64,000 nucleotides of DNA, taken from Aldrovandia affinis. Its lineage: Eukaryota; Chordata; Actinopteri; Notacanthiformes; Halosauridae. The position numbers were made by a program, and so were the translations under genes. Under the pieces are notes generated by a model, which was not told the origin of the DNA, ran no database searches, and saw only the letters and a list, made by a program, of their open reading frames with translations. The stretch's first letter is position 1, and each line of letters starts with the position of its first letter. The stretch is taken from assembly GCA_029706075.1 (NCBI GenBank), contig JAINUG010000114.1:806001-870000 (forward strand), written 5' to 3'. Below, piece by piece: positions 2,833 to 54,244 of the stretch.

Positions 2833-2956
2833 ATGGGGATCTCTTGGATCAGAACAGCTTCGTCTCTACAGTTCTGTGTCTTCGCTTTTTGGAGCTTTCG
2901 TTTGGCAACGCGAGCTGAAGAAGACGCTCCTCTCCAATATTACGACGATGAAAACG
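2833..2956 (+). CDS. kcp: kcp exon 1: signal peptide
   Basis: The start ATG at 2833 opens a 41-residue segment with a hydrophobic core (LQFCVFAFWSF) and a likely cleavage after the RLATRA motif, so the product is secreted. After it comes an acidic EEDAPLQYYDDEN stretch. The donor GT at 2957 splits a codon after one base (phase 1) and the G joins the TC of exon 2 to make the Val of VIDLLEALN, a typical TSPN start. Upstream in-frame codons lack another ATG. Confidence 0.75.
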
Positions 2957-8966: not shown

Positions 8967-9523
8967 TCATTGATCTCCTGGAAGCTCTGAATATCACACG
9001 CTCCATCAAGGGTGTGACTAAGGCCAAGGGCCTTGAGCCAGAAGTCCCGGCCTGGAAATTCCGTCAGCGGGTGCCCCACCTCACCCTACCCCGGGACTTC
9101 TCCATCTACTTCCTCAGCACAATGCAGGGCTCCATTGGGTTCCATTTCGTGGCCCAACAGGCCAAGAACTCTGACGGCACCCTCGTCTCCTTCATTTCGC
9201 CGGCCGCCCTGAAGAAAGATGGCCGCCCACTTCTCCAGCTGGTCTCCAGCACCCGCTCCAACCAGCTACGCTTGGACTACCGTGCGGTTCACAGCATGGA
9301 GCCTGCCAGCATCCTTTTCCCCGGCGGCACACCCTTCTCCAACGGCCGCTGGGCCCGCGTGGCCCTCAATCTCGAGGCCCACAAGATCTCGCTCTTCATC
9401 GACTGCGAGGAGGCTATTGTCTTCGAGAAAAGCCGGGGCGAGGACGTGCTGAGCCTCACTCTGCCCATCGACCTGGAAATCACCTTTGCCAGTGTGCCCG
9501 ACGACAAGGCGAGCAAGTTCCTG
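8967..9523 (+). CDS. kcp: kcp exon 2: TSPN / laminin-G-like domain
   Basis: The acceptor TATTTTCAG precedes 557 bases encoding a complete thrombospondin N-terminal-like domain. It opens with VIDLLEALN and carries FSIYFLST, GSIGFHFVAQQ, the RWARVALNLE strand and the LFIDCEEA turn typical of this fold. The donor is CTG|GTGAGT, phase 0. The domain is a jelly-roll module found in thrombospondins, NELL proteins, collagens and Xenopus kielin, often binding heparin or matrix partners. GC content and third-position GC are clearly higher than in the surrounding intron. No internal stop. Confidence 0.9.
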
Positions 9524-10968: not shown

Positions 10969-11041
10969 GGTTACTGGCAAACAGCAGAGGTCTCCACCAG
11001 TGGCTACATGAGACGCCCATGGCACTGTGAAAATCTATCAG
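10969..11041 (+). CDS. kcp: kcp exon 3: TSPN C-terminal linker
   Basis: A short exon of 73 bases between a CTCTTTCCAG acceptor and an ATCAG|GTACCT donor. It starts in phase 0, in frame with exon 2, and ends in phase 1, in frame with exon 4. It encodes 24 residues beginning GYWQTAEVST and including PWHCENLS. The assignment rests on splice sites, matching phases on both sides and the open frame; the family relationship of the peptide itself is not clear. Confidence 0.6.
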
Positions 11042-17743: not shown

Positions 17744-17976
17744 ACTCCATGCCCTATACCCTCCCCAATGACGGATTGGAGGAAACCTACAGCAAAGATC
17801 CCAGCATGCACCTGGAGCCACAGTCAGACTCAGCACACGACCAGCCCCAGCGCAGTCACCTGGGACCCCCGGGGTCACAACGAGGGTCAAAGCCCCAGAA
17901 CCCCGAGGAGAGGATTCGGAGATTGGAGGAGCTGGTTGATGGACTCAGCACCATGATGGACATGGTCAAAGCTCAG
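17744..17976 (+). CDS. kcp: kcp exon 4: Pro-rich and coiled-coil segment
   Basis: The acceptor is CCCTCTCTCAG with a good pyrimidine tract, and the donor CTCAG|GTATGC. The exon enters in phase 1 and leaves in phase 0. It encodes 78 residues: a polar Pro/Ser/Gln-rich half (HLGPPGSQRGSKPQN) and then a helical heptad-like half (EERIRRLEELVDGLSTMMDM) that continues into exon 5 as NTNLLSRVQYLE. Mammalian KCP has a coiled coil directly before its first VWC domain, so position and character agree. It probably drives oligomerisation, as in NELL and thrombospondins. Confidence 0.75.
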
Positions 17977-18311: not shown

Positions 18312-18477
18312 AATACGAATCTACTGTCACGGGTTCAGTACCTGGAATCGTGTGAGTGCCGCCGACCCACCTGCACCTGGGAGGAGCGGGAGGTAGAGGA
18401 TGGGACACGCTGGGAAACAGACCGGGGCTCTGTCTGTGTGTGCGTCACGGGGAAGGTGCAGTGCTCAGTCACCGATG
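18312..18477 (+). CDS. kcp: kcp exon 5: end of coiled coil and degenerate VWC1
   Basis: A 166-base exon after CTCTGCAG, starting phase 0 and ending phase 1 at GATG|GTGAGT. It closes the coiled coil (LLSRVQYLES) and encodes a short VWC-like domain, CECRRPTC to VCVCVTGKVQC, matching the reduced first VWC of KCP (LESCEC start). This exon is the branch point: its phase 1 donor fits both the EGF exon at 20220 and the VWC2 exon at 35982. Confidence 0.85.
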
Positions 18478-18755
18478 GTGAGTGACCCGGTTCCTACCAA
18501 ACCATGTCTCTGTGGCGGTCTGCCTGCGGTGCTTGCAGCATTACTGCAAGGCTGAAACAATGATGAACACCAAATTTAGCTCATGTCCGTGGTTGTTTGC
18601 TCAGGCCACTAAGAGTTTTAGGAAGCTGTTCATCAGATTCATCTGGTTAAATATTCCATGGCTTTGGCTTGTTTTCTGAAGAGTTCATGGTGGAGGGTGT
18701 GTTTGCCCTGGCCAGTATCCTGTTAGTTTTACTGAGCCAAAGGGCACTGCCCAGC

Positions 18756-19439
18756 CAGAGATGGGCAAAGATACATCAAAATGTATCTTGTTACAAAATA
18801 CAAAATACCTCTCAAATAAATGTATCAGATCAAAATACAAAATACTGGTGCCAAAAAATGTATCAGATAAAATACATGTATTTTGTATTTTCAAAATACA
18901 GGAAAATAAACTTGTCTCCAATTGGCTATCGTAGGCCAACATATGAATAGGTGGCTGCCTTTCTCTATGAATATGAGCAAAAAGCCAAAATCACTTAGGC
19001 TATCGCCGTGTTAGAGGCACAATCACATCTTTAGCATCTCCTAATTAGTCACGTCACGATTTCTCAAAATGCCACTTCAAATACTGTGAGTAGGCTTGTG
19101 TGAAAACAAGCGCCGAAATCTCAATAGCTGCCTGTGACCAGATACATGCATGCATCCATGTGTGCATGCATTCACTGCCTTGTCCAACCGACAGAGAGCG
19201 GGTCTAAAAATCACTGTGTGAGTGTGTCTAAGTGTACTGTTGTTCTTTTTTTATGTTCTTTGAATCATGGATAAAGTATTTTGAGTATTTTGAAAATACA
19301 AAATTACTCCACCCTAAAGTATCTTGTTACAAATTACATTATAATTTTTTCAGCCCTGTCAAATACAAATTACGAAATACTCAAAAGTAATTGAAATACG
19401 TATTTCAAATACAAGTAACAGAAATACTGCCCATCTCTG
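18756..19439. mobile_element. Non-autonomous hAT element with 8-bp TSD
   Basis: Ends are inverted, CAGAGATGGGCA on the left and TGCCCATCTCTG on the right. Identical 8-bp duplications TGCCCAGC flank it (18748-18755 and 19440-19447). The body repeats AAAATAC/GTATTTT motifs in inverted order and has no transposase. A second copy lies at 44016-44902. Confidence 0.85.
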
Positions 19440-20219
19440 TGCCCAGCGCAGGTCAGCTCTACAGCAAGCTGTCAGATTGAGTGATAAGGAACATGCCTTT
19501 GGAATGGAGTTTAATAGAATTCCACAGTAACAAGGATTTCTGAACCGGCAGTTAAGATCAGAATCCTTAAGGAATGGCAGAGTTGGTCTCAGAGCCTGGG
19601 AAGGTTACAGAGCATCTCTGCTCACATCTGATTTGGAATTTACTCGGCAAAAACATCACTCACACTGAGCCAGTTATGACTAGGCCTATAATATACTGTA
19701 TATTTGAAGTTGATCACATTTGAGTTGTTATCTCTCAGTCTGGACATGTTCTTTCTGATGTGGTATCAAACACCAGAAGCATTCTTAGTGGTGGTTCCCA
19801 GCATTTTTACTTGAAAAATAACATGCATAAGTGATTTCTTACTTCTAGTGTCTATATGTCCTAGTGTGGCATAGACTGCATCTTACATTTTAACTTTTGT
19901 TACAAGAGAGATATTATGGGGTAAACTATAAAAGCTCTTGTTCATTTAATATCAGTCACCTATATCCAGGTTTAATTACAGAGCTTAAGATACACATGCC
20001 TTAAATAATTATTGTCTTTGTTCATGCTTTCCTTCATTCATCCATGCCATTCATTTATTAATTTGTACACTCATCCATTCACTCATTCAGCCATCTGTGA
20101 GTCATGTGTACAGGCGTATTGAACTTTGGGTAATGTTTACAGGGTGCTCTCAGCTTTGGGTAGTGTTTTCAGGGTGCTTTAAACTAGGAAGGGTTCTGAA
20201 CAACCCAGTTTCCTTGCAG

Positions 20220-20359
20220 ATCCCTGTCTCTCCAATCCTTGCCTAAATGGGGGCTTGTGCCAGGTTTTGACCTCTGAACATGGGCAGCACCCCTTGGGAT
20301 TTAGGTGTTCTTGCCCGCTCTCTGCATTGGGGCGCTTCTGTGAGAGACCAGTGACCCAG
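20220..20359 (+). CDS. EGF-like domain exon of the alternative module
   Basis: The acceptor TTTCCTTGCAG is followed by a phase 1 to phase 0 exon of 140 bases encoding one EGF domain. It has the six-cysteine pattern from DPCLSNPCLNGGLC through GFRCSCPLSALGRFC. There is no calcium-binding D-x-D/N start of the classical cbEGF type. The order TSPN, coiled coil, VWC, EGF resembles NELL proteins, but mammalian KCP has no EGF here. The donor CCCAG|GTACAG is the first unit of a 68-base tandem repeat (20355-20693). A downstream donor copy, if used, would add an in-frame TAG after eight codons. Confidence 0.75.
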
Positions 20360-20693
20360 GTACAGCAATGTCACCCTCTGTTGTAGACTAGTCGCCTGTA
20401 GTGGACTAAACTTACCTTGGTACAGCAGCTTCCAACCCCCCCTTTATGTTGTAGACTAGCTGCTTGTAGTGGACTAAACTGGCCCAGGTACAGGAGTCTT
20501 CATCCTGCCCTTTGTGTCTCAATCTATGTGCTTGTAGTGGACTAAACTGACCTGGTTACAGCAGTGTTCCACCCTTCTTCTGTGCTGTAGATTCGCTGCT
20601 TGTAGTGGACTGAACTGACCTAGGTACAGCAGTGGTCCTCCCTTCTTCTATGTTGTAGACTAGCTGCTTGTAGTGGTCTAAACTGATGCAGGA
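20355..20693 (+). repeat. 68-bp minisatellite that starts at the EGF exon donor
   Basis: About five tandem units of 60-70 bases with core GTAGTGGACTAAACTGACC then (A/T)GGTACAGCAG; the first unit includes the last five bases of the EGF exon and its donor. A sixth unit continues after the SINE, at 21078-21160. Confidence 0.8.
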
Positions 20694-21077
20694 ACGGGCC
20701 TTGCGTGTGGTCTAGTGGTTACAACATTCAACGCTGGCCACTGCGACCAGGGTTTTATTCCACCAGCCGTGCCAGAGTCAGCTCTGGCCGGGAGTGCCAC
20801 CAGGGGTGGCAATTGGCTGTCCGCCCCAGGGAGGGGGGAAGGAAGCCGTCAGAAAGTTTGCTGCGCACAGGAGTGGCTCTGTAGTATCGGAGTTATGGTC
20901 GACAGCCTGGTGAGTGCTATCTCAGAGGAGACGATACTTATTTTGCCTTTGTCACTACCGGTCACAGGGCTTCGGCAGCAAACTCACTATACGAGGGGGG
21001 GATTGACATGAAAAATAGAGGGTGTAATTGGCTACTAAATTGGGAGAAAATTGGATAAAATCTGGAAAAAAAAATAA
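20694..21077 (+). mobile_element. tRNA-derived SINE with 14-bp TSD
   Basis: Head with a degenerate A box (TGGTCTAGTGGTTAC), body GGCAATTGGCTGTCCGC and G-rich segment, 3' part AGAGGGTGTAATTGGC and A-rich tail. Exact duplications AAACTGATGCAGGA lie at 20680-20693 and 21078-21091. The insertion split the minisatellite. Its 3' part is shared with the SINE at 56272-56649. Confidence 0.8.
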
Positions 21078-21624
21078 AAACTGATGCAGGACCAGCAATC
21101 GTATACTCACTGTTGTAGATTAACTACTTGTCATTGTCTAAACTGTAGATTAGGTTTTCTGTAGCAGCCTGAAGGAGTTGTTTAGATTTGTTGGAACATC
21201 ACTCTTAATAGACCTTATTCAATTAGGTTCCATGAAACATAAAATATTTATCTTAGAGCTGGAATATAACTTGAGGAAATAGCAACACTTTGAAACTCTT
21301 TATTTCTGTACTCTTAAGTACTGTGTATTGGCTATGATTTATTTAACAGTGTTGGCTTTCATGCCAATTTATTACAAGGTCATTGCACCCTGTGCTAAAA
21401 TATTTAGTGCTTATTATATGTGGTTGTTATATTTAAAGTCTGATTTATGGTGATGTATGAATATGAACAGTCCGATTGTGTCTGGCACGGTCATAGTTTC
21501 CTGTAGTGTGAATGAAATTGTTGGATCCTACTGAGTAAGGTCTATAACAGATTGCTTTGTAGTAGTGTTCTGGCTCATGTTTGGTTGCATATAGACATTT
21601 GGCATTGTTATTTGTAGGGCTGAA

Positions 21625-24314
21625 TATAAAGTGCAATCCGTAAGTATTTGGACAGTGACACATTTTTTGTTGTTGTGGCTCTACTCCAGCAGATTGAATT
21701 TGAAATTAACCTCATAGTCATTGTTTCAAGTGCAGACTGTCACCTTTAATTAGAATTTGAGGGTGTTTACATCCATATTGGGTGAACCGTGTAGGTATTG
21801 CAGCCCTTTTAATACATTTTCCCCCAATTTTAAGGGACCAAAAGTAATTGGATGATTGGTTCCTCAGCTGTGTCTTGGGCAGGCGTGTTTCATTTCATTG
21901 TTACTTCTTGCACAAGATTAGGTGTGTCAAAATCAACTGTTTGGTACATTGTTAAGAAGCAAGAACACAATGGTGAGCTCAGAAATGGCAAACGAGCTGG
22001 TAGACCACAAAAGACTAGTGTAGTGGATGACATAAGAATACTTGGACTGGTGAAGAAAAACCCCTTTTCAACTGTAGGGGCCAGGTGTGGTTTTACCACA
22101 CCAGGTTATATTTAATCAGTCTCATAAAATTAAATAATTATAATCAGCCTCATTTGATTATTCACTTATGGATTATGGATATATGCATGCTTCAATTTTT
22201 AAATGAAAGCTATTGACTAGACTATTTTGGCTATATTCCCATGTTTCTATAACATCAAAACAGACACAATGTTTAACAAAGAATATTTATTAAAAACATA
22301 ATAACAAAATCAACAGAAACCAAGAAATTATAAGGGAAGCAAACGTTGGATTGATGAAAATAAATATATGAGAAAAAGGTGTGTATATGGGTGAGGAATG
22401 TTTGCTTGTTAAATATATGAGACGCGAAGCACTGAAACTGACCACGTGGAGTAGCCAGCGTTTGCGTGCTTTGTCTCTGAACAACGGCACACAGAAGTTG
22501 TCATGATACTCCGAAAAGGGCAAACGGTACTATGCGTGTGTATACATGAATAGTGGGATTGCGCAATGGATTCGCTGCATTTTGGTGAATAACTTTATGT
22601 TAGTTTCCTAAGGAGTAGCATTGCATTGTGGAGGGGAAGCATAGATTCAGAGTGCAATCTATGCTACCGACCAAAATTTGAATGAGTTATTTCAACTCTG
22701 CGAAACACGGAGATCATACATGTGACAAAGATTGTTAGTTACTGGGAAAGTTAGAAAGGATTAAAATGAACTCTGTTAAGGTAGCTATGGTCAACATGAA
22801 GGCAGCAAGTTAAACAGCTAACTAGTTAACCTGTTGTTACAATTCTTAATCCTAACACACTCGCTAAATGGTAATATAATATAACACAGTGTCGATGTGC
22901 TAATTATATAGTTACTATCCTAACTATTGCCTGCGATGTTTGTCAGTCCACTGAGCGTGTCGTTGCTTCCGATGGTGGTTCCAATAGTTGCACCTGTGGT
23001 GCATGGGTCCCTTTTGTTCAGCCTGGGGTAGAGTTCTTCACTGTGCTTTGTGGTTGTAGTGACTGCGCGCAGTTGTATTCTTCTACTCCGGTTCGTTCTG
23101 GTGATTCGTGACTTCGTTGTCGATGAGAAAAAAGGCCTTTCTCTTGGAGTTGGTAGCTGGTTGAGCTTAATTAACTAGAAAAAGTGCCAGGATGAGATGC
23201 TAGTACTCTGTTTTGGTGAAACAGATTAGTCTATGCAGGAATTTGTTCCTACGTAGGAATTAAAGCTCTTTTAAGTATTTCTGCCGAAAATACTAACTAG
23301 TTACTATGAGGTAGACTAGCCCAGCTTTTAGCTGCGTGACCTTACAGGAAGTAAGGAGGCAGAACAATGCGCGCAAGTGCAGGATAAAAAGGGCAATAGG
23401 TGCTTGCTAGTTTTATTTTGCGTTACAGTGGGGGAGGTGAAACGCTACTGTACTAGGTCATCCATTGGCTAACAGTCTTTTGAAGTTGCCGCTTAGAGTC
23501 GCGTGCAAGTGACATCTATTCGTCGTCACAACTACACAACTGTTGAACAGATCAAGAACAGTCGCCAGGATGTAGGATGTAGATGTGTCAAAGGCTACCA
23601 TCAAGAGAAGACTACACCAGCATAACATCAGAGGGTTCACCCCAAGATGCTAACCCCTGGTTACAGTTTGCAGAAAAGCGCATAAAAAAACCTGTAGAGT
23701 TCCGGAACAAAGTGTTATGGACAGATGAGACAAAGATGTACCAGAGTGATAGAAAGAGGAAAGTGTGGAGAAAAAAAGGAACGGCTCATGATCCGAAGCA
23801 TACCACCTCATCTGTCAAACATGGTGGAGGTGGTATTATGGCTTAGGCATGTATTGCTGCCACTAGAACTGTCTCACTTGTGTTCATTGATGATGTCACT
23901 TGCTGAAGACCAGTGAAGGCAAAAAGCCCCCGAAACAAGCAAGGACTGAAGATGGCTGCAGTACAGGCCTAGCAGAGCATCACCAGGGAAGATACCAAAC
24001 ATCTGGTGATGTCTATAGGTCGCAGACTTAAGGCAGTCATCGATTGCAAAGGATTTGCAACAAAATATTAAATATGATGACTTTATTTACGTTTATGTTA
24101 ATTTGTCCAATTACTTTTGGTCTCTTAAAATGGGAGGACTATGTATAAAAAGGGCTGCAGTTCCTACACGGTTCACCTGATATGGATGTAAAACCCCTCA
24201 AATTAAAGGTTTAACCTCGTAGTCATTGCTTCATTTCAAATCCAATGTGCTGAAGTACAGAGCTACAAGAATAAAAAATGTGTCACTGTCCAAATACTTA
24301 CGGACTGCACTGTA
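21625..24314 (+). mobile_element. Tc1/mariner fossil carrying a 1.46-kb LTR insertion
   Basis: Terminal repeats match: GTGCAATCCGTAAGTATTTG at the left and its counterpart CAAATACTTACGGACTGCAC at the right, each next to TA. The + strand encodes transposase pieces: the helix-turn-helix part (GVSKSTVWYIVKKQEHNG, NGKRAGRPQKTS) at 21900-22070 and, after the insertion, the first catalytic Asp region (NKVLWTDETKMYQS) at 23700. The C-terminal part is missing or too decayed to read. Confidence 0.75.
22073..23536 (+). mobile_element. Solo LTR, retrovirus-like, 1,464 bases
   Basis: The block starts TGTAGGGGCC and ends CACAACTACA (TGTA..TACA) and is flanked by 4-bp duplications CAAC (22069-22072 and 23537-23540). 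Removing it restores continuous Tc1 sequence (CAACTGTTGAACAGATCAAG). No coding region for gag, pol or env is inside. A TATA-like GATAAAAAG at 23383 near the right end suggests + orientation with a short R-U5. Length and 4-bp TSD fit an endogenous retrovirus LTR, but the family is not identified. Confidence 0.65.
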
Positions 24315-25074
24315 TATGGTACATTCATTATTTAATATGAGCAAAATGTTTTCATATTATGTATTAGCCTATGCATTGATTGTGTGTGTCTGTGTGTGCA
24401 TGTATGTGTGTTGCTCTTCTAATGATACCAAAAGGGCCTCTAGTTTTCACTGGCACATCCCAGTGAGACGGTTGTTATTTTTGCATTGACACATCCTATG
24501 GAATCCAGACTGGGCCAGTGCCCGCTGTAACTGGTGATGCATAATTGGCCACAGCGTCACTCAGGGAGGGACGGCTTCAATCGGCAGGGGTTCCCCACCT
24601 CAACAGTAGCGACTGTTCAGGATGATCGGGTGCCTGAAATCTGCCTGAAACAGCTGTGCCAGTTTCACAGTTCTCTGGTGCAGTAACTGCACAGTCCAGC
24701 TGGTGGATTGCAGGATGAAAAGAAGCAGCAAATTGCTACACATGTTTCTGAGGATGTGGACTAGTGTGGACCCTCCCAAATTGATGGAGGAAGTTGTAGT
24801 GATGCATTTTTACAGTTTTTACATTTACAATTTATTAAGATGGTTAAGAAAGGACAGAACAGTTGTGTGAAAGTACATCAGTTATCAGTAAGTTATTACA
24901 TTGGAACAAACTGTAGACCACTAATGAACATCTTTATCTTTTAGGAGTTTTTGGGTACCTTTTAGGATTTGTGCCTGTATATATTGTGTCAGTATATGTG
25001 TGCCACTTTAATACAAGTTCAGATAAAGCAGGTATCAGTCAAATTGGTAGATCCGCCTTCTCCCTTTTACATTT

Positions 25075-25284
25075 ACATTACATTTTCAGGCATTTAGCAG
25101 ACGCTCTTATCCAGAGCGACTTACATTTCTTTACATCCAATCCATTTTTACAGCTGGATATATTTACTGAAGCAATTCAGGTTAAGTACCTTACTCAAGG
25201 GTACAATAGCAGTGCCCCACCTGGGAATTGAACCTGTAACCTCTGAGTTACAAGCCCAGCTCCCTAACCATTACACTACACTGC
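25075..25284 (-). mobile_element. tRNA-derived SINE
   Basis: Same family and orientation as 15340-15565: tail GCAGACGCTCTTATCCAGAG, body AAGTACCTTACTCAAGG and B box complement GGAATTGAACC, ending in the tRNA-like head. Confidence 0.8.
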
Positions 25285-25834
25285 CAGCCATTTTATTGTT
25301 GGGCAAAACCTAAGAATTACTCAATTTTGCATCCAATATTTATTTCTGTTTTCGAAAGTCCGTTTTCTTCTGTGATTATTGCTTAGCAGAAAACCAGGGG
25401 CCCTAAAGCGTCTGCTTTATTTTATGTATATTTTGTGTGTGTTTGCTTCATCGGTCATCCTCATGTCTGTCATTTCAGTTAGGATATTAGATGGGTAGTG
25501 CTTTACAGCAATCTCTAAATTATGATTGCCGCATATTAATTCATGTAACTGCCTTAATTTGGGAGTTGCTTAGAACCTCTTAATTAATTAATGCATTATT
25601 TTTGGGGGGTTTGTAGTCGGTTTTAATGGGTATTGCCTTACTGGAATTACTTTATTACTGCTCTTACATATTTGCTGTAAAGTGTTGCTCACATTAGTGT
25701 GGTAGTTATATTGCAGTTGAGGCTCTTGAACAGACAATATTATCAAAATAAGTTGACCCTGAAGTGAAAGAGGTGAGTAGAGACCTCCTCTCTTGGGTGA
25801 AACGAGGCCTCCACCCAGCTTATGTGCCCTCTAG

Positions 25835-26750
25835 GCCTGCACTCTGCCAAAGATGGAGGGCCACTGCAGGCGCAGGCAGGAGCCCCGGTGGCGCTGGTTT
25901 TACAGCTCCCTCACTGCCACATGCGAGGTATTCCTCTACAGCGGCTGCGGAGGGAACAACAACAATTTCGAGAGCCTCCATGCCTGTCAGCAGCGTTGCA
26001 TGCTGGGAGCTTGCTGCTACCGCCAGCCCAGGCTTCCAGCCATTCTGGTGGGGTTCGATCAAGATGGCTATGACCGGTACGGGTACAACGTTTCTAACCT
26101 GGACCGGCACGGGCAAGAGCCAGGAGTGGCCAAAAGCCAGGAGTGGGCGGGTCCGGCTCTGTTTGGCCTCAACGGGAAAGTCTTCAGCAGGCTGAGAGAC
26201 GGGAGGACGTTCAACAAATATGGCGTTGATCGCAATGGTTATGACAGAGAGGGGTTTCACAGAGACACTGGGTTCAACCTGACCGGCCACAACCACAAGG
26301 GGGACTATGACGGTCGCTCAAAATTCAACCGGGACGGGTACGACCGCAAGGGCTTCAACAGGGCAGGCTTTGACTGCAGTGGCCTGGACGCTCATGGCTT
26401 TAACTACCTGGGCCTGAGCGCGGGGTTCGCGTACAGCTGCGAGCACCTCTCCCTGGTGCAGTGCCAACTGCGCAGCCAGAATGGCCTGCGCAGGGAGGCA
26501 GTGAGCTTCTCCCCCGGGCGGAGCTGTGCAGACGTGCGCTGTAGAGAGGACTGCGGCTGCTCTTTCCACGGGTCCTCCTACCGCCTCGGGGAATCTTTCG
26601 AGTACGCATGTGAGGTATGCGTGTGCAGCTACACGGGTTCTGTGGAGTGCAACTGCCGACACCTGACCCAGCGCAAGGAGGTGAGGGATATGACCCCTGC
26701 GGAGAGAGCGGTGTACCAGCAGGCCATTGGGGTGCTTTACTCTATGCCAG
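25835..26750 (+). CDS. Kunitz, GYD-repeat and VWC-like exon
   Basis: One long exon (916 bases, phase 0 in, phase 1 out at GCCAG|GTATCA). Residues 2-55 form a Kunitz/BPTI domain with six cysteines spaced 8, 18, 7, 12 and 3; the second gap is normally 15, so the loop carries three extra residues, and the P1 residue after Cys2 is Arg. Residues 72-195 are two runs of a five-residue repeat of type G-(Y/F)-(D/N)-x-x, for example DGYDRYGYN and RKGFNRAGFD, split by a QEWAGPALFGLNG segment. Residues 200-275 form a Cys-rich VWC-like half domain (GCSFHGSSYRLGESF, CEVCVCS). The end (RKEVRDMTPAERAVYQQAI) is the helix that opens tyrosinase/hemocyanin domains. Third-position GC is high and there is no stop. 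Confidence 0.85.
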
Positions 26751-27267
26751 GTATCATATTACTGTCATTTCTGTCTTTCACATGAGTTACTGCACCACAC
26801 TAACAAGCATAGCCTCATGTGGCTTACCTATGAATACATGAAGCATGAATGCACAACCTTGTTTAGATTAATACATATCACTGCTCTAGTTTCCACTAAT
26901 CTGACTAACAGAAACAGACTTTTAGTTTTATTTATCTGATTTATGACAGGACCAGTATATGTTTAAATTTTGTGCTGGGGTTCCCAAGTAGAGAATCCAG
27001 CTAAAGCACTAATTCTGAGTGAAGCAATGCACCCCATGATCTAGATAGAATCCTGGTAATGCCAGTACTGACTGTGGATGGGAGTCCCTGAGGGCAAGGC
27101 ACAATTAGCCATTGTGTCACCAAGGGAGGGAGGAATTTAGATGTTAGGTTTTAGTATTTAATACACTATTGTGCTCCTCCCCCAAATTTAATAAAAAGGT
27201 TTCATGTCTGATAATTAATCATTTCCTGCCCCCCCCCATTCCCCCTACCTTGCCATTGTGCTATCAG

Positions 27268-28705
27268 GAGTTTGGGAAAGCTTTGCTAGAATACGGGCTG
27301 ATTATATGCCTCAGGCCAATCGGCAGTTCTCCTTCCTGCCCTGGCACCGCTACTTCCTGAAGGTGGTGGAACGGGAGCTGCAGAAGGCCTCGTCTTGTCA
27401 GATCTCCATCCCCTACTTTGAGTGGACAGTGGATGCAGGCTCCCTGGAGACCTCTGCCATCTGGCAGGCTAATTTCTTTGGGGGCAATGGGGACCCCAAG
27501 ACTGGCTGTGTCTCCCACCACCCCTTCCAGGGCGAGGCGCACTGGTCCCCCTGCCTGCGGCGGAAGTTCAACTCCTCCATCTCCCTGCCCGACGCCGTTA
27601 ATCTGCAGCTGCTACTGGCGGAGGAGGATTTTGGCCAGTTCTCCACTCAGACCTGGATGGTTTCGGCGCTCTTCCACCTCTGGGTGGGGGGTCACATGGC
27701 GTCTGTACTCAGCCCGTACGACCCCGTCTTCCTGTCCCACTACGCCTTCATGGACAAGCTGTGGGCACAGTGGCAGGAGCGCAGGCGCGATGCGCTCTCG
27801 CAGTTTCCCGGGGAACTGAGGTACACGAAGATGAAGCCTTTCAACGTGGCTCCGGACGATGTCCTGCGGTCCCAGCAGCAGCTGTGCACTCTCTATGTGC
27901 CCATCACCCTGGGCACCCCCTGTAATGTCACCTCATCACGGAAACCGTCTGGCCCAGATAAGGACCAATACAACAGGCATGCCATAGACTCTGACGATTA
28001 TGACCAATATGACTACAGCAGGAAGGATGTTGGACTTAAAGTGAACACTAACCATCAAACTACGTACGACAAAAATGGTTACAACATACATGGCTATGAC
28101 CAGAGCGGTTTTGACCAAATGGGCTGGGACAAATATGGCTTTGCCCAGGACAAATTTGATCGCGACTACATGGATGTCGACGGCTACGATATTTTCGGGT
28201 ACAGCCGCTATGGGTTCAATCGGTCTAATGTCACGTCTTTTGGGATGAGAAGGGATGGGACCTTTGTCTCCTCTGTGAGTGAAAAGGTCATGGACCAGCT
28301 CTTCGAAGATGGATACAACAAGTACGGCTTTGACGCCTTCGGCTTGGACAGGAACGGCTTCGACATGTTTGGGTTTCGCACTGACAGCTATGACAAGGAC
28401 AAATGTAACTTCTTCTTCCAGGGCCCCCACTACATGAGGTTTTACTTCTTTGCTCAGCTCCAGATCAGCATGGCGGGTCCAGGGACTCTGTCCCGAATAA
28501 AGCGCATCTGTCCTCACATCACACCCTTGCCCGAGAGCTGGGTCATTCAGAACTGGTTGGCTCTGGACACTGGGGAGGGCATGGCTGCGATTCGCATCAT
28601 GGAGCAGGAGTGGACCTTACAGCACCCGTTTGACAGGGACTACATACCCAATATCTCCTCAGTGAAGGAGAGCGGCTTGTGGCTTCCCATCACCCCCGAC
28701 CTCAG
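27268..28705 (+). CDS. Tyrosinase-like (copper-ligand-poor) and GYD-repeat exon
   Basis: The acceptor GCTATCAG starts a phase 1 exon of 1,438 bases (479 residues) ending phase 2 at CTCAG|GTAATA. Residues 1-175 carry the tyrosinase/hemocyanin signatures FLPWHRYFLKVVERELQ (CuA) and HLWVGGHM plus DPVFLSHYAFMDKLWAQWQ (CuB). Of the six expected copper histidines only H27 (PWHR) and H137 are seen: the second CuA position is Asn18, no His lies in the usual range for the first, and the CuB positions are Ser133 and Tyr159. Residues 230-380 are a second block of GYD/GFD pentads, and residues 380-479 a mixed domain with NFFFQGPHYMRFYFF. It is probably a secreted, catalytically inactive tyrosinase relative. 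Known vertebrate tyrosinases (TYR, TYRP1, DCT) are membrane-bound and lack these flanking modules. Confidence 0.85.
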
Positions 28706-28895
28706 GTAATACAGACACCTCCTCACCCCTGACATCAGGAAATACAGACACCCCTTTACCCCTCACCTTCGGTATTACAGATGCCCCTTCACTTCTAGCC
28801 TCAGGTAATACAGACGCTCTTAACACCCATAAAATTAGGTAAGAGTAATGCCACTTCACCTGTAACCTCTGGTAATACAGACAGACCCCCCTTAC
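28697..28895 (+). repeat. Minisatellite that starts at the tyrosinase exon donor
   Basis: Four to five units of 40-50 bases with (C/A)TCAGG(T/A)AATACAGAC; the first unit contains the exon's own donor and a near-exact copy of the donor recurs at 28801-28817. Confidence 0.75.
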
Positions 28896-29159
28896 CCTCA
28901 AGTAATTTGTATGACTTACTCATTAAGGTTTCTATTCATAGCCTGTTTAATATTTTCTGAATGTACACTGGATTACATGTGCAATTACATGCAGGAACAA
29001 TCAGAGGCTCACAGCTGAAGGCTGAAGTAGAAATCCAGTTATTAGGCAGCCAGAAGGAACAGGCTCAATGTGTGCACAGAGTGTGTGTGTAGTGGTTGTT
29101 CCCTCTCCGTTTAGAGCCACAGCGTGATTGCTTGTGCTTGGCTGCTCTCTCGTCCCCAG

Positions 29160-29352
29160 GTTTTGCTTTGAGTTGCACTGGTTCTCAGGCTGTCCAGTGG
29201 GCCCCGCCCCAGTGACCTGCCCTGACCACTGCAAGAACGCCCGCTGCGTGGGCTACCCGGACGCTGAGTGCCATGTCCATAACTGCGGATCCTGCTTTAC
29301 CGAGTGGTATGACAGAGACACGGGCAGCCATGTCATGTGTCAGGGCTGGTAA
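29160..29352 (+). CDS. Cys-rich last exon with stop
   Basis: The acceptor TCGTCCCCAG joins in phase 2 to the preceding exon (AG plus G makes Arg). The exon encodes 64 residues and ends with TAA at 29350-29352. It has eleven cysteines in a pattern CPDHCKNARC, YPDAECHVHNCGSC, FTEWYDRDTG and VMCQ, resembling small Cys-rich modules of matrix proteins. I do not recognise the family with certainty. The only GT near the stop that could act as a donor would leave phase 2 and cannot join the phase 1 VWC2 acceptor in frame. Confidence 0.75.
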
Positions 29353-30300
29353 CCAGGGGGCACTGTTGAGTTAAGGAGCCGTCAATATGGGGGCCACTCC
29401 CAGGATGGGGGGGGAACACCCTGGGCCTCTCGGACAAGGACACCAAATCCAAGATTTGCCGGATGCTTCAAATACCTGATAAATCTTTGTATTCATAGGA
29501 ATTTCTCTGGTCGACAAGTGACTTGATTGATTTCATAGCATCTGTTGGAGTGACTGGAATTGTGGTTTGACACCAGCATAAAAATACATGGTGAACACAT
29601 TTGCCAGGCTAAAAACAACAAAATGGAAATATTACAGTACTGTTAATATAATGTTAGCAAAAAGGTCTTAAAGATATGAAACATTTGAAAAGACTTTCCA
29701 AAAGAGCAATGTATTTTTTGTGTGCTCACTAAAACATACCAGTATATGTGAAAGATCACCTGCTGTAGTTTAAAAAACTGTGCACACTATTCAGAGATGG
29801 TATTGTGGAATGGCAGAAGAAAACCCAGTATATTATCATATTTATGATAATTGCTCCATTTATCGCCAATGTGTTTTAAATTGTATTTGGCTCTGGCTTA
29901 TTGGACAGTGTTGTATTTATAATACATCAGGCATGTTTACCTTTTATTTGTGCCTGCCCACACTTTTGTCATAGCATAGTTTTTTGAGAAGTATTTTTGT
30001 TAATCATATGTAAAAGGACACTGCAGTGGAAATTGTTGTTTTATTTGACTATCATTACTATAGAATTACACTCTAAAATTGAGGAATGAGAATGATGGTT
30101 TTGCAAATGCACACTAATAGCTCATGTACACTAACCCCCCTCCCCTTAATAGTTTCTGCATGTTTGATTGTTGCACAGCTCAGATCATGACTTTCTCATC
30201 TCTTGCACAAGAACCACAGCTGCATGGACCACTGCTAAATCAAGAGCAAAGCTTTTCTCTCTTCCTTTTGTATTCAATAAAGATAAGGGGTTGCACAACC
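29353..30300 (+). other. Probable 3' UTR of the tyrosinase-like isoform
   Basis: No coding exon seen after the stop at 29352. The first good polyadenylation hexamer AATAAA lies at 30276-30281, giving a 3' UTR of about 0.9 kb. The extent is inferred from this signal only. Confidence 0.4.
30276..30281 (+). promoter_or_regulatory. Candidate polyadenylation signal AATAAA
   Basis: The first canonical hexamer after the stop codon at 29352, in the sequence TTCAATAAAGATAAG. GT/T-rich stretches follow within 60 bases (GTGTTCTTGTTCC). Its use would end the short isoform before the VWC array. Confidence 0.4.
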
Positions 30301-31179
30301 ACATCAAGTGTTCTTGTTCCCATGTTCTGCATGCTGTATTTTCAATCCCTTCACTGTGCACATATGGTTCCCTTCCTAATCGCTTGGCCTTGCAGAAAAA
30401 GCACTGACCAGCCTTTTCTACAGGGCAGTTTTGTACTGGTAAGCAAATGTACGATCTTCAGTTGAAAATTATGCACATTACTTCAGTGAGGTACAATATA
30501 CCTCACTACCGAGGTATCGTAACTCTACATATTATGGGCAATTTAAAATGCTTTGTGACTTCAGTGAATCCACAATCCCTGCACCAGTGGGTGTACTGGT
30601 TACAGTATAGGGTAGGAATGTCACTCAAAAAAGACTGAAGACATTTTTAAGGTCATTAGTAATGAATAGGTACCTTGGAAGATTTTTTGCAATTTTTCTC
30701 AAATTTTGCCAGTTGAAAGTGTTTTGTGTCTCAATCTCTATCTCAGTCTCTATCAGCACAGAAACAATTTTGACTAAAATGGTTCAAATGACTGGCACCA
30801 TAGTGACCTGAAGCTGAATCTGCTTGGAATTTGTGGAATGATGCTGCAGGCTCTTGACTTCAGCCCCAAAGAAAACGACTGAAACAGTTGTCTGACTGAA
30901 ACAGGGTTTGCAAGTAAAATATAAAAGGATATGTCGACAGTGCATTGATTTGTATGGCCCATATCTATTATAATAATAGAGCATTTCTGAGCATCACTGT
31001 ATGTTACAGTGTAACTCCTGTGATTATTGCTTATTAAATATCCTGGTGTGTGATAAGCGAAAGTTAAGAGACTAAGGGCAGGTCAGGATGTTGCGATCAT
31101 GCTTTCATTGGCATGTTTTTAGAGCTTATCCCATTTGAATAGGGTGGCTGCAGTCCTCTACTGTGTTTCTATTCTTGCT

Positions 31180-31340
31180 CACAGTATATAAACTTTCCTT
31201 CTACATTCAGGGTCATTTCATTTTTACAGTATGCAAACCATATCTATATTCAGGGTTCTCACAGTATGTGAACTATTCCTCTACATCCAGCACACTTTAA
31301 TGCTCACAGTATGTAAACTTTCCCTCTACATGGGCCATGC
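31180..31340. repeat. Degenerate minisatellite
   Basis: Diverged units with CTCACAGTATGTAAACT and CCTCTACAT recur four times. Confidence 0.6.
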
Positions 31341-32996
31341 ACTCTACATGTAGGGTGCTTTGCGGAAGCAGGGCCTGGGTTTAACGTCAGGCCAAAAGAT
31401 GGGCTTGCACTCCTGAATTTGCAAACCAGGAGTGTGCTGCACTCATTACTGGCAGGAGATTTGGGGTTGTGGAGCCAGATGTTCCCCTGGGTGATGTGCC
31501 GAAATGTATTTCTGACTGTCCCATCCTGGCCAGGGTAGAAGAAGGGGCTGTATAACCCCCCCCCCCCCCACCCTTAGAGAGTAAAAGAGAAAACCAGGAG
31601 TAGTCTGTAAAAAAAAATCTTGTTGATTATTTACTCTTGTGAGGAAACAATTACATAACTTTTTTACTCTGTGTTTAATGCTCTGCTACTGGGTGTTGAT
31701 CAGAATCCCGCTGAGTTAAAATTATTTATAGTAGCCCAGTCTCTATAGCAACTGACAACATGGGATATATTTTTATTCTACTGAATTACATACGTGGACT
31801 TCTAATATGGTGTGAATCAGTGCTGTTGTTATGTGTCACCTCTCTACACTTCTGTATATTTGTGAGTTATGTTTGTCATGATTGCAGGCTTTACTTCTAG
31901 CACTGTTTTCAGGTAATGTGAAGCAGCAACTGCACTGATATAGGGATATAGGGGACTCTTTATTTCCAAACCACCTCTATTTTCCAGTTATACTATGAGA
32001 AAATACATTTGTACCATATGGCCAAGAACTCTTTGCTTAGTTTACTTTTCATGAAATAATTCCACAGTTAAATCTGATAATTCTCTAAATGTTCTCATTA
32101 CCAGCGGTTAAAGTCAAAATCCTTAAAGGAGTCAAATGAGCTTGCCTAGTTAATGCATCAATACACAGGTCTTGAAAAGAACTTGCATATTGGCCTCTTT
32201 TTGTCACAACTCCCACAGATTTGATTTATAGAGTGCCAGCATGATTGGTAGGCTGAGCAGACCCCCCTCCCCTTTCCCCACAATGGCTGAAAAACTACCG
32301 GATTAAAGCTGTAAAGGAAATATGAGGGAGGTGTGTGCCTCTGTGTGTGTTTGGGGGGTCATGGGAATAATCAGGGAACACAGGGTTTGGGCATCCAGGA
32401 TTGAGCCCTATGAATATCAATCAACTTCGTGTTGCCTTTTAGTTGATGGCTTTGCCTTATGAACCCTTGGAGTGGATCTGCTAGAGCGCTTTCCCTATTG
32501 ACTTCTCTGTGGATTACACTGTGACACTCCTGTGAATGAAACGAGTCAAAATGGTTTCTCTGGTAAATGTGAGATGATATGAAAGGATTTGCATGTGGAT
32601 GGGTTGACTTTCCCTTACTCCATAAAGTCTTTTGAGATCCCTGAAACATTTTGTTTATTTGAATAGAATGTGATGCTCATAATTTAATAGCTATAACATA
32701 TTCTCAACATGTTAATCAGTCATTTCCTAAACTATGTGATTCAAAGTTGACTTTTTAACGGTACTAGTGCATTGATACTTTGTTAGGTTAACTGCAATTA
32801 GATGCCATTCTGGAGAAATCTCCCTCAGTCCTATATAATGTTCGGTGATTGGCCAAATATGGACATTGTCCAGCCATTGACCCCAACTGAAAGTTCAGAA
32901 AAATATGAAATAACTGGCATTGAATGGGCATTAAGTTAAATGTAAACTTGAAATTCATATAACACTACACTAGTCAAGTACACTACAGTACAGTAC

Positions 32997-33069
32997 CACT
33001 TACCTTTGCACCATTTCAGGTTAAAAACTGGAAAATGGCGGTGTTCTAAAACTTTTGACTGGTAGTGTA
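32997..33069 (-). mobile_element. Tc1 terminal remnant
   Basis: Ends with AACTTTTGACTGGTAGTGTA, nearly the same as the terminus at 16143. Confidence 0.55.
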
Positions 33070-33118
33070 CATTGGCTGCATTACAAAATAAACCATTCTC
33101 ATATGGAATGATTAAGTA

Positions 33119-34851
33119 AATAAACATTGAACAAAAAGTTCAGAAATTTGATTATTTCTCTGTTGTAACAATGCTTCTTGGCAATAAATTGTATACCATT
33201 GGAAAGCCTGTTTATTTCCCTTTTAAATGGTGCCCCATTTGTAAGGAACATGCATTTGTGGGATGAGCAGCACAGCTGAATATGTGGGTTGCGCCCATGA
33301 AAAATTTGCCAAATCTTCTCTGCCAATGCCAAACAGCTTATTCTGCTGTTGCTATTGACTCTTGTTTTGAGCTTCGGTACCCCAGGTGCTGACAATCAGG
33401 TGCCTGATTGGCACCTGATTGGCAGCACCTGTGAGCATGGGCCCTGCTACAGTGGTCAATTGGTGTCTGCTCCAAGAATCGGCATGCCACGTTTGTCTGA
33501 TCTCGATAAGGCCCGTGCGATAGGGCAACTTCAAGCTGGTGTTCCGCAAAAGCAAGTTGCAGCATTATTTGAAGTGAGCCCTAGTACCATCTCCAAACTG
33601 AAGGCCAAGTTCCATGAAACGGGGGATGTCAGAGACAGACGCGAAGTGGGCGTCCCAAGAAGACGACACCCTAAGAAGACCGGTTCCTCACCCTTTCAGC
33701 ACTTAGGAACCGTAGGCTGTCTTCTACAGATTTGCAGTCAAGGTTTGCAGGACGATATGGCACACGGCTTTCGGCTCAGACAATCCGGAACAGACTGCAC
33801 GCAGCCAATCTCCGGGCTCATAGGGCTGCCAGGAGGCCTGCCATGACTGCCCTTCACCATCAGGCCCGTTTGCGCTGGTGTTGGCAATACCTGCACTGGA
33901 ACCTGAACATGTGGAGGAACGTTATGTTCAGCGATGAGTCCAGATTCTGCCTACGGAAGTTGGATCATAGGGTCAAAGTGTGGAGAAGATGGGGAGAACG
34001 CTATGCTGATTGCTGGACCGATAGAGTAACACCTTTTGGTGGAGGCAGTGTGATGGTGTGGGGCGGCATCTCCATCACTGGAAAAAACGAGGCTTATCAT
34101 CATTGGAGGCAATCTCAATGCAGAGAGATATCGAGATGAGATTCTGCAACCAGTGGCAATCCCATATCTCCACAGTCTGGGACCGAACTCCATCTTCCAA
34201 GATGACAACGCTCGCCCCCACAGAGCAGGGTTTATCAGAGACTACCTCCAGAATTTGGGAGTAGAGAGAATGGAATGGCCTGCCAACAGTCCTGACCTCA
34301 ACCCAATTGAACACTTGTGGGATCAGCTTGGGCATGCTGTTCGTGCTAGAGTGACCAACACAACCATGTTGGCTGACTTGCGACAAATCCTGGGTGAGGA
34401 GTGGAATGCCATCCCACAGCAGTGTGTGACCACGCTGGTGACCAGCATGAGGAGGAGGTGCCAGGCTGTTGTGGCTGTGTATGGTTCTTCCACACGCTAC
34501 TGAGGCTCCTGACTGTTTGTTAAATGAATAAATTGTAAAATTGCCAATATGTCTTGTTTCTTCCTTGTTACTGATAGACTTCAATCATCCAATCCACCAA
34601 ACAACACCAAACAAGAGTCAATAGCAACAGCAGAATAAGCTGTTTGGCATTGGCAGAGAAGATTTGGCAAATTTTTCATGGGCGCAACCCACATACTCAG
34701 CTGTGCTGCTCATCCCACAAATGCATGTTCCTTACAAATGGGGCACCATTTAAAAGGGAAATAAACAGGCTTTCCAATGGTATACAATTTATTGCCAAGA
34801 AGCATTGTTACAACAGAGAAATAATCTACCAAACACAAATTTCCGAACGTT
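33119..34851 (+). mobile_element. Tc1-like transposon with long terminal inverted repeats
   Basis: The arms 33130-33366 and 34607-34840 are inverted copies of more than 220 bases with few differences (ATTATTTCTCTGTTGTAAC at the outer side, AATAGCAACAGCAGAATAAG at the inner side). Between them lies a Tc1 transposase gene with frameshifts. The outermost bases differ more and TA dinucleotides lie at both ends. Confidence 0.85.
33484..34503 (+). pseudogene. Tc1 transposase, frameshifted
   Basis: ATG at 33484 opens MPRLSDLDKARAIGQLQAG with a helix-turn-helix (VAALFEVSPSTISKLK). The frame shifts near 33690-33740, continues with TIRNRLHAANLRAHRAARR and the first Asp region NVMFSDESRF, shifts again near 34090-34150, then gives FQDDNARPHRAG, WPANSPDLNPIEHLW (DD34E-type second Asp and Glu) and a stop after SSTRY at 34503. 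About 340 residues in total, the normal length for the family. The intact motifs and few breaks suggest a fairly young copy. Confidence 0.85.
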
Positions 34852-35664
34852 GATACCACTTTTCCCAACATGAAGCTATTTTAAATCGCGTTTCCTTGTG
34901 ACTGTTTTGGACAAGTAAAAATTATTGTTTGTAATGTTCCAAGACATACGTTGACAACTTGGGTTCTGGAGGGCCATGGGCCCTGGAGAGATGTCTATGT
35001 TTGTGTTTATTTCAGCTAATTACCCAGACAAAATTAGCTAATTATTAACTAACCCTGGTTCATATCTTAGGCTACAGTGAAATGTTTTAGATAAAGATGA
35101 AGGTGCCTGCAGAGCAGAATTTGGTATGAAATCCCCTGTTACAAGGTAAATTTGCTTTGATACTCTGGAAACAGAAATATAAATGTTGCTTAAGACAGAT
35201 GAAGGGGACTAGAAGTTTAGCAGAGGGGAGCATCTGTTTAGAATTAACCTTTTTGTCAGGTTTCACAGGTGGCTGTCAGGTCCCTAAAACCCTGAAGGCT
35301 ATCAAAGGTCCTTTTGATAGCCTACCCTGGGGGCCTCTCTCTCCATCTCTGCTCCAATGTGGCTTCATTTAAAAGGCTGCTTCAGACACCCCAGCAAGCC
35401 TAGATTAATATAATACCTGAAACAGTAGTCAGTAAAAATGTGGTCCTATTGTCCGTAAATTTTCCTCCAACAAACAAGCCACAAAAAATATAATGGTCTG
35501 ATCCGGGAGTCGGTAAATCTCATGATGAAGGTCACAGACATTGATGTGAATGGAATCAGATGAGGGCAGGTTACAGAAGATGCCAGCATCATAAAGCCCT
35601 CATGTGGACCTGAGTGAGAGTCTGTTGGTATGTATTTAAACGCTTCAACAAGTCCTGAGTGTCA

Positions 35665-35800
35665 CGTGTGAAAAATGGACTGTGTCATGTGTGAAACATG
35701 TACGGCTTGATGTGTGAGATTTTTGCTGATTCATGACTGAAACATGTACTGCTTCATGTTTGAGATTTGTGCTGCTTCATGTGTAAAACATATACTGTAC
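35665..35800. repeat. Minisatellite, about 48-bp unit
   Basis: Units with ATGTACTGCTTCATGT and GTGAGATTTTTGCTG recur three to four times. Confidence 0.6.
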
Positions 35801-35981
35801 TTTATTTCCACATGTATATTGCGTGTTGAGTGTGTTGTATTTTTCTTGTAGCCTTGTAGGGAAGACTAAGTAAGAATACTGTTAGCATATCCCACCACAG
35901 AGACCTGAGACTTGTTAAATCTCAGAGCCTGGTCCCTGGTGTGTCTTCTAGTTTGATGTGGGCATATTGTGTCAGTTGTAG

Positions 35982-36058
35982 GTTGCACTTTTGAAGGGAA
36001 GAGGTTCGCCAACGGAGATGTGTTCAGCCCAGATCCTTGTGTGTCCTGCCTGTGTGAG
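35982..36058 (+). CDS. kcp: kcp exon: VWC2 first half
   Basis: Acceptor TCAGTTGTAG, phase 1 in and phase 0 out at TGTGAG|GTGAGT. It encodes GCTFEGKRFANGDVFSPDPC and then VSCLCE, the C-x(n)-F-x-P-D-x-C-x-x-C-x-C half of a VWC domain. VWC1 (exon 5) joins it in phase 1, as in mammalian KCP. The last exons of the tyrosinase-like module do not fit this phase; the Kunitz exon (phase 1 out) would. Confidence 0.85.
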
Positions 36059-42580: not shown

Positions 42581-43825
42581 TGTGTGCTGTTTTCCAGCTG
42601 TCGCCATTACTCCCTTTACTGTCAGTAAAGAGGCCTCAATGGGGACTATAGGGGATGTGGACCCTGAATCAAAGGGTTAAACCCTTTGTAGGGCGTTGTT
42701 ATAGTACTAGGGAGCATGGCTTCTGTATATCCAACTGTATAGATAGAATGCAGAAATGTAAACCAAGTTGCACTGGCAGGGCTGTACAGTGCGACATATA
42801 TGTCGCACGTGCTACGAAAACAATTGTCTGTGCGATGAATCATTTTACTGCCGTAGCACCGGTGCGATAGCCAATTTTTTTCTCTTGCTTATGAAGTTAG
42901 ATTCTGTGTGACGTGAATTAAAGTGCCTCGCTATTCTACTTGGTAGTTGTAGTCTATCGTGCGGTCCCCGTCTACGTAGAGTCCACACATCCAACACCAA
43001 ATCCCACAATTCCTAACGAACAAGCCCATTTTCCTCTGCGATTCGAGAACGGAAGACGACAAAATGAAGAGATATTTTCATGTCCTAAATCAGGCGGCCC
43101 GCGAACCTTTGTTTTGTGGCCCCCAACATGCCTGGTTATTCATGTATAATCATTATAATTAGCCCCCAGAAGTCGTGTGAAAATTAGGCAGTGCCAGGGT
43201 TTCCATTAGAAAAAACGTGTCCTGGAAGATTTCAATGTCCCGGACAAATGGGAGAAATTCGGGTCAAATATTATCTGTGTTTATTGAGCTTAAAAACAAT
43301 TGATAGGCAAGCTATATAAAGGCATCATCAAGGCATGTAGATTTATAATATTTTTTATTGAAAAGTAGTCTACTTTTGCTTATACATTATATTCCAAATA
43401 AAATAAGTCCCGTCAATAGACTCACGTGCATAAGTGCACGTGCACGTGCTATTTTAAAACTAAATAAATATTACGCTAGCCTACGCTCGTTGGGGCAACA
43501 CGTAAACACAAAGAATTTCCTTCAGCTTTAGGCCTACATATTCTCAGATAAAATAAAACAGAATAAAAACTATTTGCAAACAAACAAAAAGTTACATGTA
43601 GGCCTATCTGGCTCATAACATTTTAATTACGGCGTGCTGCTGCCGACTTGAAATCAAATAATTTCCGTTCGCTACAGACCTGTTCTCAGATCAAATAAAA
43701 TAGAATAAAAACTATTTGAAAAAATAAATAAAAAATAACCTATTGGTGGCTCATATCATTTTACTTCTTACCCTTTTTCGCATTGTGCTTAGAGGGAAAA
43801 CAGGGTTTTCAACCCTGCGTGGGAA

Positions 43826-44015
43826 ATGGAATTTGCTTTTGCGGAGATACATGGGAAACCAATGTGTCTCATCTGTCAAAAAACAATTGCTGTGTCAAAG
43901 CGAGCTAATCTACAACGCCACCACGAACAGCTTCACCCCGAGTTCCGAGATGTCTATCCACCTGGCAGCGATCTCAGGAAACACAAAATACAAACGTTGC
44001 TAGGTGGGTTTCAAG
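43826..44015 (+). pseudogene. BED zinc-finger N-terminus of a hAT transposase
   Basis: C-x2-C (CLIC) followed by H-x4-H (HHEQLH) with the linker FRDVYPPGSDLRKHKIQTLL, as in many hAT transposases. The frame is cut by the insertion at 44016; just after it (44911 onward) a short in-frame-like QSMF segment and stops follow. No DDE or dimerisation domain remains. Confidence 0.75.
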
Positions 44016-48566: not shown

Positions 48567-49300
48567 GTAAGTTTCCAGCTGCTCTTTATAACCCTTTGGC
48601 CTCATTATTTTGATATCATTCACTTATTTTGTGATGTTGTCCTTGAGCTAAATGAAACTGACCTTCTATTGTGCAGAAGTAATAACTATTGTTTCAAATG
48701 GTTGACAGGCTCTTGCACTGAAATGATCTCATGGATAGTATTACCAACAATGTTGGAGCAAACTGCAGCACCTGGCCTCACTTTACACAATGCTGAAATT
48801 TAGGTCAGCATTATGCATATGCTCTATGCATATGACCTAGTTCTGCTGTCCTGCAGAGCTTAGGCTGCAGCAGAACCCGGATTTGCCAGAGCAGTGCTGT
48901 CAGTAGTGGGAACTGACAAGAAATCAGGAAATTGACACATTTGGTGTTCCAGAGGAAATCCTGACCCCAAGCAAATAGGTTCTGCTTTGACACAAACAGC
49001 ACAGTACTGGAACACTACACCAGCTACTAGGGATGCAAATTTGGGCAATTTTTTCTAACCTCATTAATCGGTTAACCGATAAGCTATAGGCTATAAACTA
49101 ATGGACGTAAATCCATGAACCATTACAGCCGCATATTCAAACAGTCTACCCTGCCGCGCTAATCCGATAAAACCGCTATAGTTTAGGCTAACCTATTCAT
49201 TGACATTTTAAAATAGCCTAACAGGGAGAAAAAAAGCGAATATTAGCCAGAAGAGAGGCCGTTTTTGCTGTCATGGTCCCGCGAGCACAGTGATTTAGTA
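48567..49300. other. kcp: Intron left of the chromovirus
   Basis: No exon seen. The 49050-49090 motif TTAATCGGTTAACCGATA recurs at 55800-55890, suggesting an older transposon around the chromovirus. Confidence 0.4.
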
Positions 49301-49305
49301 GCTTC

Positions 49306-49921
49306 TGTTACGTGCGGTAAATGCAGACCTGGACCCAAAAGCGGACTCGACACGGAGATGGTAATTGCGCTCCGCTCAGGAGGCGTTTAATCACGGAACA
49401 AATAAAAGTGACGGAAACAAGCCGTCCAAAAACAAACAGGCAAAACAGGAAAGCCGTGCGGCTAAATAAACGAGAAACAGGGAATCCAAAAACAACCGGC
49501 AAAAAACAGGAAAGCCGTGCGGCTACTAAACAAGAAACAAAATAAACACAGGCAGATTCAGGAATATTCGCGAAGTCAGGAACAGGTAACCAAATGAAAG
49601 CAGTGCTAGAAAAACTAGTACGCAAAGGCAATGGGCTAAACGAGTGCCGGGTTTAAATAGGCAAAAGCATTAACTAATAAGGGCAGCGTGCAGAATGTGT
49701 TAGGGGAAAACAATGTGACAGGCTAAACGAAACGAGGGAACAAGAAACAGATTGGGGCAGCGTGCAAAATGTGCAGGGAACAACAATTGACAGATTGCGG
49801 CGAAGCCGCGCCCCGCAACACAGACAACCCAGGGAGAACGCAAAAAACCAGACATGACACGCAAGGAACAAAGTGGCAGAAAAACACAAGGAAAGTGAAC
49901 AGGGCGGACAGCGATGTAACA
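49306..49921 (-). repeat. 3' LTR of the chromovirus (616 bases)
   Basis: Nearly identical to the other LTR except for small indels and one missing tandem copy of about 70 bases. Confidence 0.95.
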
Positions 49922-49932
49922 GAACCCCCCCC

Positions 49933-54228: not shown

Positions 54229-54229
54229 A

Positions 54230-54244
54230 ATGGCCTTTGCGTTC
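54230..54244 (-). promoter_or_regulatory. Probable self-priming site of the chromovirus
   Basis: In element orientation the first internal bases are GAACGCAAAGGCCAT. Ten of them (ACGCAAAGGC) are exactly complementary to the predicted first ten bases of the transcript (GCCTTTGCGT), which lie in the LTR at 49620-49629 and 54558-54567, 23 bases after a TATA box. No TGG-type tRNA primer site is present. Confidence 0.6.

Follow-up and report, generated by a model that had tools for sequence, protein, structure and literature searches.

In human KCP the coil and VWC1 are joined to VWC2, and mammalian KCP is not known to contain EGF, Kunitz, pentapeptide or tyrosinase-like exons. For Xenopus Kcp, an exon 2 allele has been described that is mutated in the LaminG domain, located ahead of the Cys-rich domains (PMC6750614, in excerpt). 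In the available portion of a 2013 survey of type-3 copper proteins, vertebrate tyrosinases form part of the gamma subclass and the alpha subclass is given as absent from cephalochordates and non-tunicate chordates (PMC3658974). The nearest chordate alpha-type protein found in the literature is Tuphoxin, a tunicate alpha-type phenol oxidase which, according to the excerpted text, is secreted and combines EGF with a haemocyanin-like tyrosinase domain (PMC9395347). NELL2, which has a coil in addition to LamG, EGF and VWC domains, forms trimers by way of that coil (PMC7083938, in excerpt).

The locus analysed here lies in a 64,000-nt stretch of an Aldrovandia affinis contig (hereafter the window), which ends inside the VWC array of kcp. 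It resembles KCP/kielin in having a LamG-type head before Cys-rich domains and a VWC array downstream, but differs in that EGF, Kunitz, pentapeptide and tyrosinase-like exons, followed by a stop, are found between VWC1 and VWC2. With Tuphoxin it has in common the association, in a chordate, of EGF and an alpha-type tyrosinase domain (PMC9395347, in excerpt), whereas Tuphoxin is a putative enzyme with a TSP1 repeat; here there are Kunitz and pentapeptide sequences, the copper site is lost, and TSP1 had no match in the six exon pieces submitted to Pfam. The combination of LamG, coil, VWC and EGF domains is also reminiscent of NELL1/NELL2 (for NELL2, PMC7083938, in excerpt), but NELL2 contains six EGF domains (flanked by VWC) and five VWC domains, while here a single EGF exon is followed by Kunitz and tyrosinase-like sequences. 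The vertebrate TYR, TYRP1 and DCT proteins (gamma) belong to the same Tyrosinase superfamily, with a weaker similarity to exon 8 than the bacterial 1wx2. Among the literature matches listed, none mentions kcp or TSPN together with tyrosinase and Kunitz in its title or at the start of its abstract; a gene model of this kind may already exist in public fish annotation.

Exon chain and reading frame

A preliminary description, made from the letters of the window, had placed four open exons on the kcp strand between VWC1 and VWC2 and had followed one frame through nine exons, from the ATG at 2833 to the TAA at 29350. Recomputation returned the same exon ends, AG/GT sites and phases (Table 1), and the same length of 3,840 nt, i.e. 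1,279 codons plus the stop with no frame break, a sum which depends on the candidate exon 3. Together, the four exons 6 to 9 contribute 2,687 coding nt, with all AG/GT sites present and no stop or frame break, the open length being 305 codons in exon 7 and about 479 in exon 8. The phases match at the three junctions 6-7, 7-8 and 8-9 (phases 0, 1 and 2, respectively), for which the probability by chance is about 1 in 27. What had been said about the fit to VWC2 was also correct: exon 5 (phase 1) is compatible with both exon 6 and VWC2, exon 7 (phase 1) is compatible with VWC2, and exon 8 (phase 2) is not. The Kunitz/pseudo-tyrosinase module is indeed in frame with the kcp N-terminus and has its own stop (TAA) and poly(A) signal (AATAAA). 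Contamination or an assembly gap is an unlikely source of this arrangement, since there is no N in the whole window and kcp exons are present on both sides.

Table 1. Exons and signals of the kcp locus in the window
Feature	Positions	Strand	Remarks
Exon 1: ATG, signal-like stretch	2833-2956	+	out phase 1; donor weak
Exon 2: TSPN/LamG-like	8967-9523	+	out phase 0
Exon 3: candidate 73-nt linker	10969-11041	+	out phase 1; best of 3 candidates, not secure
Exon 4: linker and coil-like	17744-17976	+	out phase 0; coil by eye
Exon 5: VWC1	18312-18477	+	out phase 1; donor strong
Exon 6: EGF	20220-20359	+	phase 1 in, 0 out; without methionine
Exon 7: Kunitz, pentapeptide repeats, Cys-rich VWC-like stretch	25835-26750	+	out phase 1
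Exon 8: tyrosinase-like domain, then pentapeptide repeats	27268-28705	+	out phase 2
Exon 9: Cys-rich last exon	29160-29352	+	TAA at 29350-29352
AATAAA	30276-30281	+	924 nt 3' of the exon 9 stop
VWC2 first exon, kcp resumes	35982-36058	+	6.6 kb after exon 9

The head of the gene was compared with known families. Exon 2 approached Pfam Laminin_G_1 (E = 0.0014, below the cut-off), and a search of the fish's own genome with this TSPN exon found five places, namely exon 2 itself and four relatives at 26-35% identity, three of which look by eye like thrombospondin N-termini. A LamG-type head fits kcp, because in Xenopus Kcp the LaminG domain also precedes the Cys-rich domains (PMC6750614, in excerpt). 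VWC1 remained below the Pfam VWC cut-off (E = 0.004), and all four of the downstream VWC units submitted (halves joined by eye) exceeded it, with 51.1 bits for the joined VWC2 against a cut-off of 27.6.

Splice sites were scored in bits with weight matrices and, for donors, against background GTs. The donor of exon 5 reached 10.2 bits; for the acceptors, 7.8 bits were obtained for the EGF exon, 6.0 for VWC1 and 5.9 for VWC2. Lower scores were found for the donors of exon 6 (4.4 bits; 8.6% of background GTs score as high), exon 7 (4.1 bits; 10.2%) and exon 1 (at 2957; 3.5 bits; 13%), and given the weakness of this last site the true end of kcp exon 1 may differ from 2956. The GC3 values are 0.61-0.75 in exons 6 to 9 and 0.69-0.79 in exons 2, 4 and 5. 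TATA-like words occur at 2728, before exon 1, and at 19927, in intron 5.

Domains encoded between VWC1 and VWC2

In the Pfam run, exon 6 matched EGF (22.8 bits, E = 1.1e-4; cut-off 21.5 bits) and exon 7 matched Kunitz (E = 1.3e-16). Another stretch of exon 7 had been described as VWC-like; by eye its cysteine spacing agrees with that name, but Pfam gave no VWC match, the sole match being PDZ_1 (E = 0.025, below the cut-off). The 'GYD' repeat of the same description is present and can be refined to a pentapeptide, G-[YFWLV]-[DN]-x-x, with a period of 5 within runs. These runs begin at residues 73, 130 and 168 of exon 7 and at residues 270, 305 and 348 of exon 8, on both sides of the tyrosinase-like domain (25835-26749 and 27870-28703), and neither Pfam, NCBIfam nor PHROGs assigned the repeat significantly to a family (best E in PHROGs not below 0.067). 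Exon 9 had no Pfam match, and its two matches among PDB sequences (E = 0.74 and 2) were taken as chance; the tail of exon 8 had none in the PDB.

The main domain of exon 8 was recognized by the Pfam Tyrosinase profile (E = 1.7e-24). Against all PDB sequences, the leading single-domain matches were bacterial tyrosinases, with 87-91 bits for 1wx2, which we take to be from Streptomyces. For whole haemocyanin chains the scores of eight units added up to as much as 245 bits; the highest for a single unit was 45.9 bits among the alignments shown. The nearest NCBIfam family was MelC2, at 103.8 bits for an equivalog cut-off of 450. As judged from similarity scores, the domain is of alpha-type affinity, being nearest to bacterial tyrosinases and mollusc haemocyanins. 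A duplicate of TYR (gamma subclass) was considered and rejected: TYRP1 chains of the PDB do not exceed 26.6 bits, where 1wx2 reaches 87, and the TYR- and TYRP1-like exons of this genome (named by eye) are other loci. An alpha-type domain inside kcp would, if true, change the history of vertebrate type-3 copper proteins. AlphaFold2 run on exon 8 alone returned a mean pLDDT of 33.9.

The copper site was examined in the alignments of exon 8, using a ligand assignment that is our own assumption and in which two CuA ligands are expected before PWHR. On this basis, two of the six copper histidines are kept. In CuA, the PWHR histidine is retained, the preceding 53 residues lack histidine altogether, and the AHES histidine of a TYR-like exon (L003) aligns to an asparagine. 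In CuB, the haemocyanin alignments indicate that only the second histidine of the HNxxH pair survives, the first being lost, and that LHH aligns to SHY, so that a tyrosine stands in the place of the third ligand; the alignment with another TYR-like exon (L004) agrees with this loss. Because only two of six histidines are kept, catalysis by this domain appears unlikely. A scan of genome contigs matched six stretches, one of which codes for a relative (L028, from the bacterium Shimia; 28% identity). The Shimia sequence (L028:606-2561) is a 652-codon frame with membrane-like stretches and a C-terminal tyrosinase-like domain, in which most copper histidines seem to be gone in the alignment. Its use as a yardstick for the copper site was dropped, its own site looking degenerate.

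No second copy of the module was found among the best candidates scored in the fish's own genome with the exon 7 protein and the Pfam Tyrosinase profile. The profile gave seven matches among these candidates: one is exon 8 itself, and the others are six TYR- and TYRP1-like exons (local tblastn and inspection by eye) distributed over four further contigs. The exon 7 protein matched 27 places; only the copy in the window covers all 304 residues, and the other 26 matches are confined to residues 1-65, which correspond to the Kunitz domain.

A proposed start shared with kcp and its alternatives

The EGF exon needs a preceding coding exon, because it starts inside a codon and is without a methionine. 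The best reading, which we favour by a modest degree of confidence, is a single start common to kcp and the module, which would differ by alternative last exons. Exons 1 to 5 (signal peptide, TSPN, coil and VWC1) would then constitute a head common to two splice outcomes, the near EGF acceptor competing with the far VWC2 acceptor for the donor of exon 5. Joining of exon 5 to VWC2 and the remainder of kcp would give the BMP modulator. Joining to the EGF exon would give a shorter protein in which EGF is followed by Kunitz, pentapeptides, pseudo-tyrosinase, pentapeptides and the Cys-rich end at 29352, from a transcript presumably polyadenylated after the AATAAA at 30276. The hydrophobic, signal-like stretch carried by exon 1 reaches the tyrosinase-like protein only if the splice between exons 5 and 6 is real; in that case the short form could be secreted, as a matrix or adhesion protein that perhaps forms multimers by means of the coil, and its tyrosinase fold might act as a binding scaffold rather than an enzyme, partners being bound by this fold and by Kunitz. 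The complete proposal, i.e. that a single vertebrate gene gives rise both to a BMP modulator and, with the same TSPN-coil-VWC1 head, to a secreted matrix protein built on a non-catalytic scaffold set between pentapeptide repeats, of an alpha-type fold reportedly missing from vertebrates, we hold to be about evenly balanced. If it is true, a BMP-modulator head has been joined to a second, matrix-type body, and a knock-out in exons 1 to 5 of a fish would remove two proteins, one in the VWC array only one.

The in-frame chain, the strong donor of exon 5, the higher score of the EGF acceptor relative to that of VWC2, the AATAAA at 30276 and the similar GC3 of module and kcp exons are consistent with a shared start. 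The domain set of NELL2 with its trimerising coil (PMC7083938, in excerpt) and the LaminG head of Xenopus Kcp (PMC6750614, in excerpt) also count in its favour. The match between exons 5 and 6 is by itself a single phase match, expected by chance in about 1 case in 3 and likelier among phase-1 extracellular modules; it is not decisive against a separate gene, nested in a kcp intron on the same strand, that would have a promoter of its own, begin at a first exon lying further upstream or of a type missed by our scan, and share only its place with kcp. We regard such a nested gene as the main rival, and as less likely than a shared start. The TATA-like word at 19927 would suit it, and speaks against a shared start, as do the mediocre donors of exons 6 and 7, the insecure exon 3 and the weak donor of exon 1. 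However, a scan for first exons (ATG, hydrophobic stretch and phase-1 donor, with the reverse strand as control), which recovered exon 1, found no signal-peptide-like phase-1 first exon in the part of intron 5 before the EGF exon (18478-20150) and none on its reverse strand. This absence is a stronger point for sharing than the phase match. Introns 1 to 4 do contain nine weak candidates of this kind, but these do not exceed the control (11), and a first exon so far upstream must skip VWC1, whose acceptor (6.0 bits) is usable. Six candidates (against three in the control) were found before the Kunitz exon; a gene starting there would omit the EGF exon.

It is very improbable, in our view, that exons 1 to 5 belong to the short protein and that kcp from VWC2 onwards has its own promoter within 29353-35981. 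The same scan found seven candidates in 29353-35930 against three in the control, but these start in three places and every donor is off consensus. The junction of coil and VWC1 to VWC2 in human KCP also argues against such a division, as does the LaminG domain that precedes the Cys-rich domains of Xenopus Kcp (PMC6750614, in excerpt). We give equally little credence to the module being a decaying remnant whose protein is no longer made. Such decay would be in line with the loss of four of six copper ligands and with the mediocre donors of exons 6 and 7, but it is at odds with 2,687 nt of uninterrupted coding sequence in four exons with every AG/GT site in place, and with a GC3 similar to that of kcp exons.

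Neighbouring elements in the window

Other sequences in the window were characterized by eye. At 33100-34870, in the stretch separating the module from VWC2, there is a Tc1/mariner-like element that carries transposase-like frames and has inverted ends. Further downstream, a frame at 43793-44000 has the look of a BED-type zinc finger, as in hAT elements, and long frames on the minus strand at 49300-54600, in a G+C-rich stretch, resemble a Gypsy-type LTR retrotransposon.
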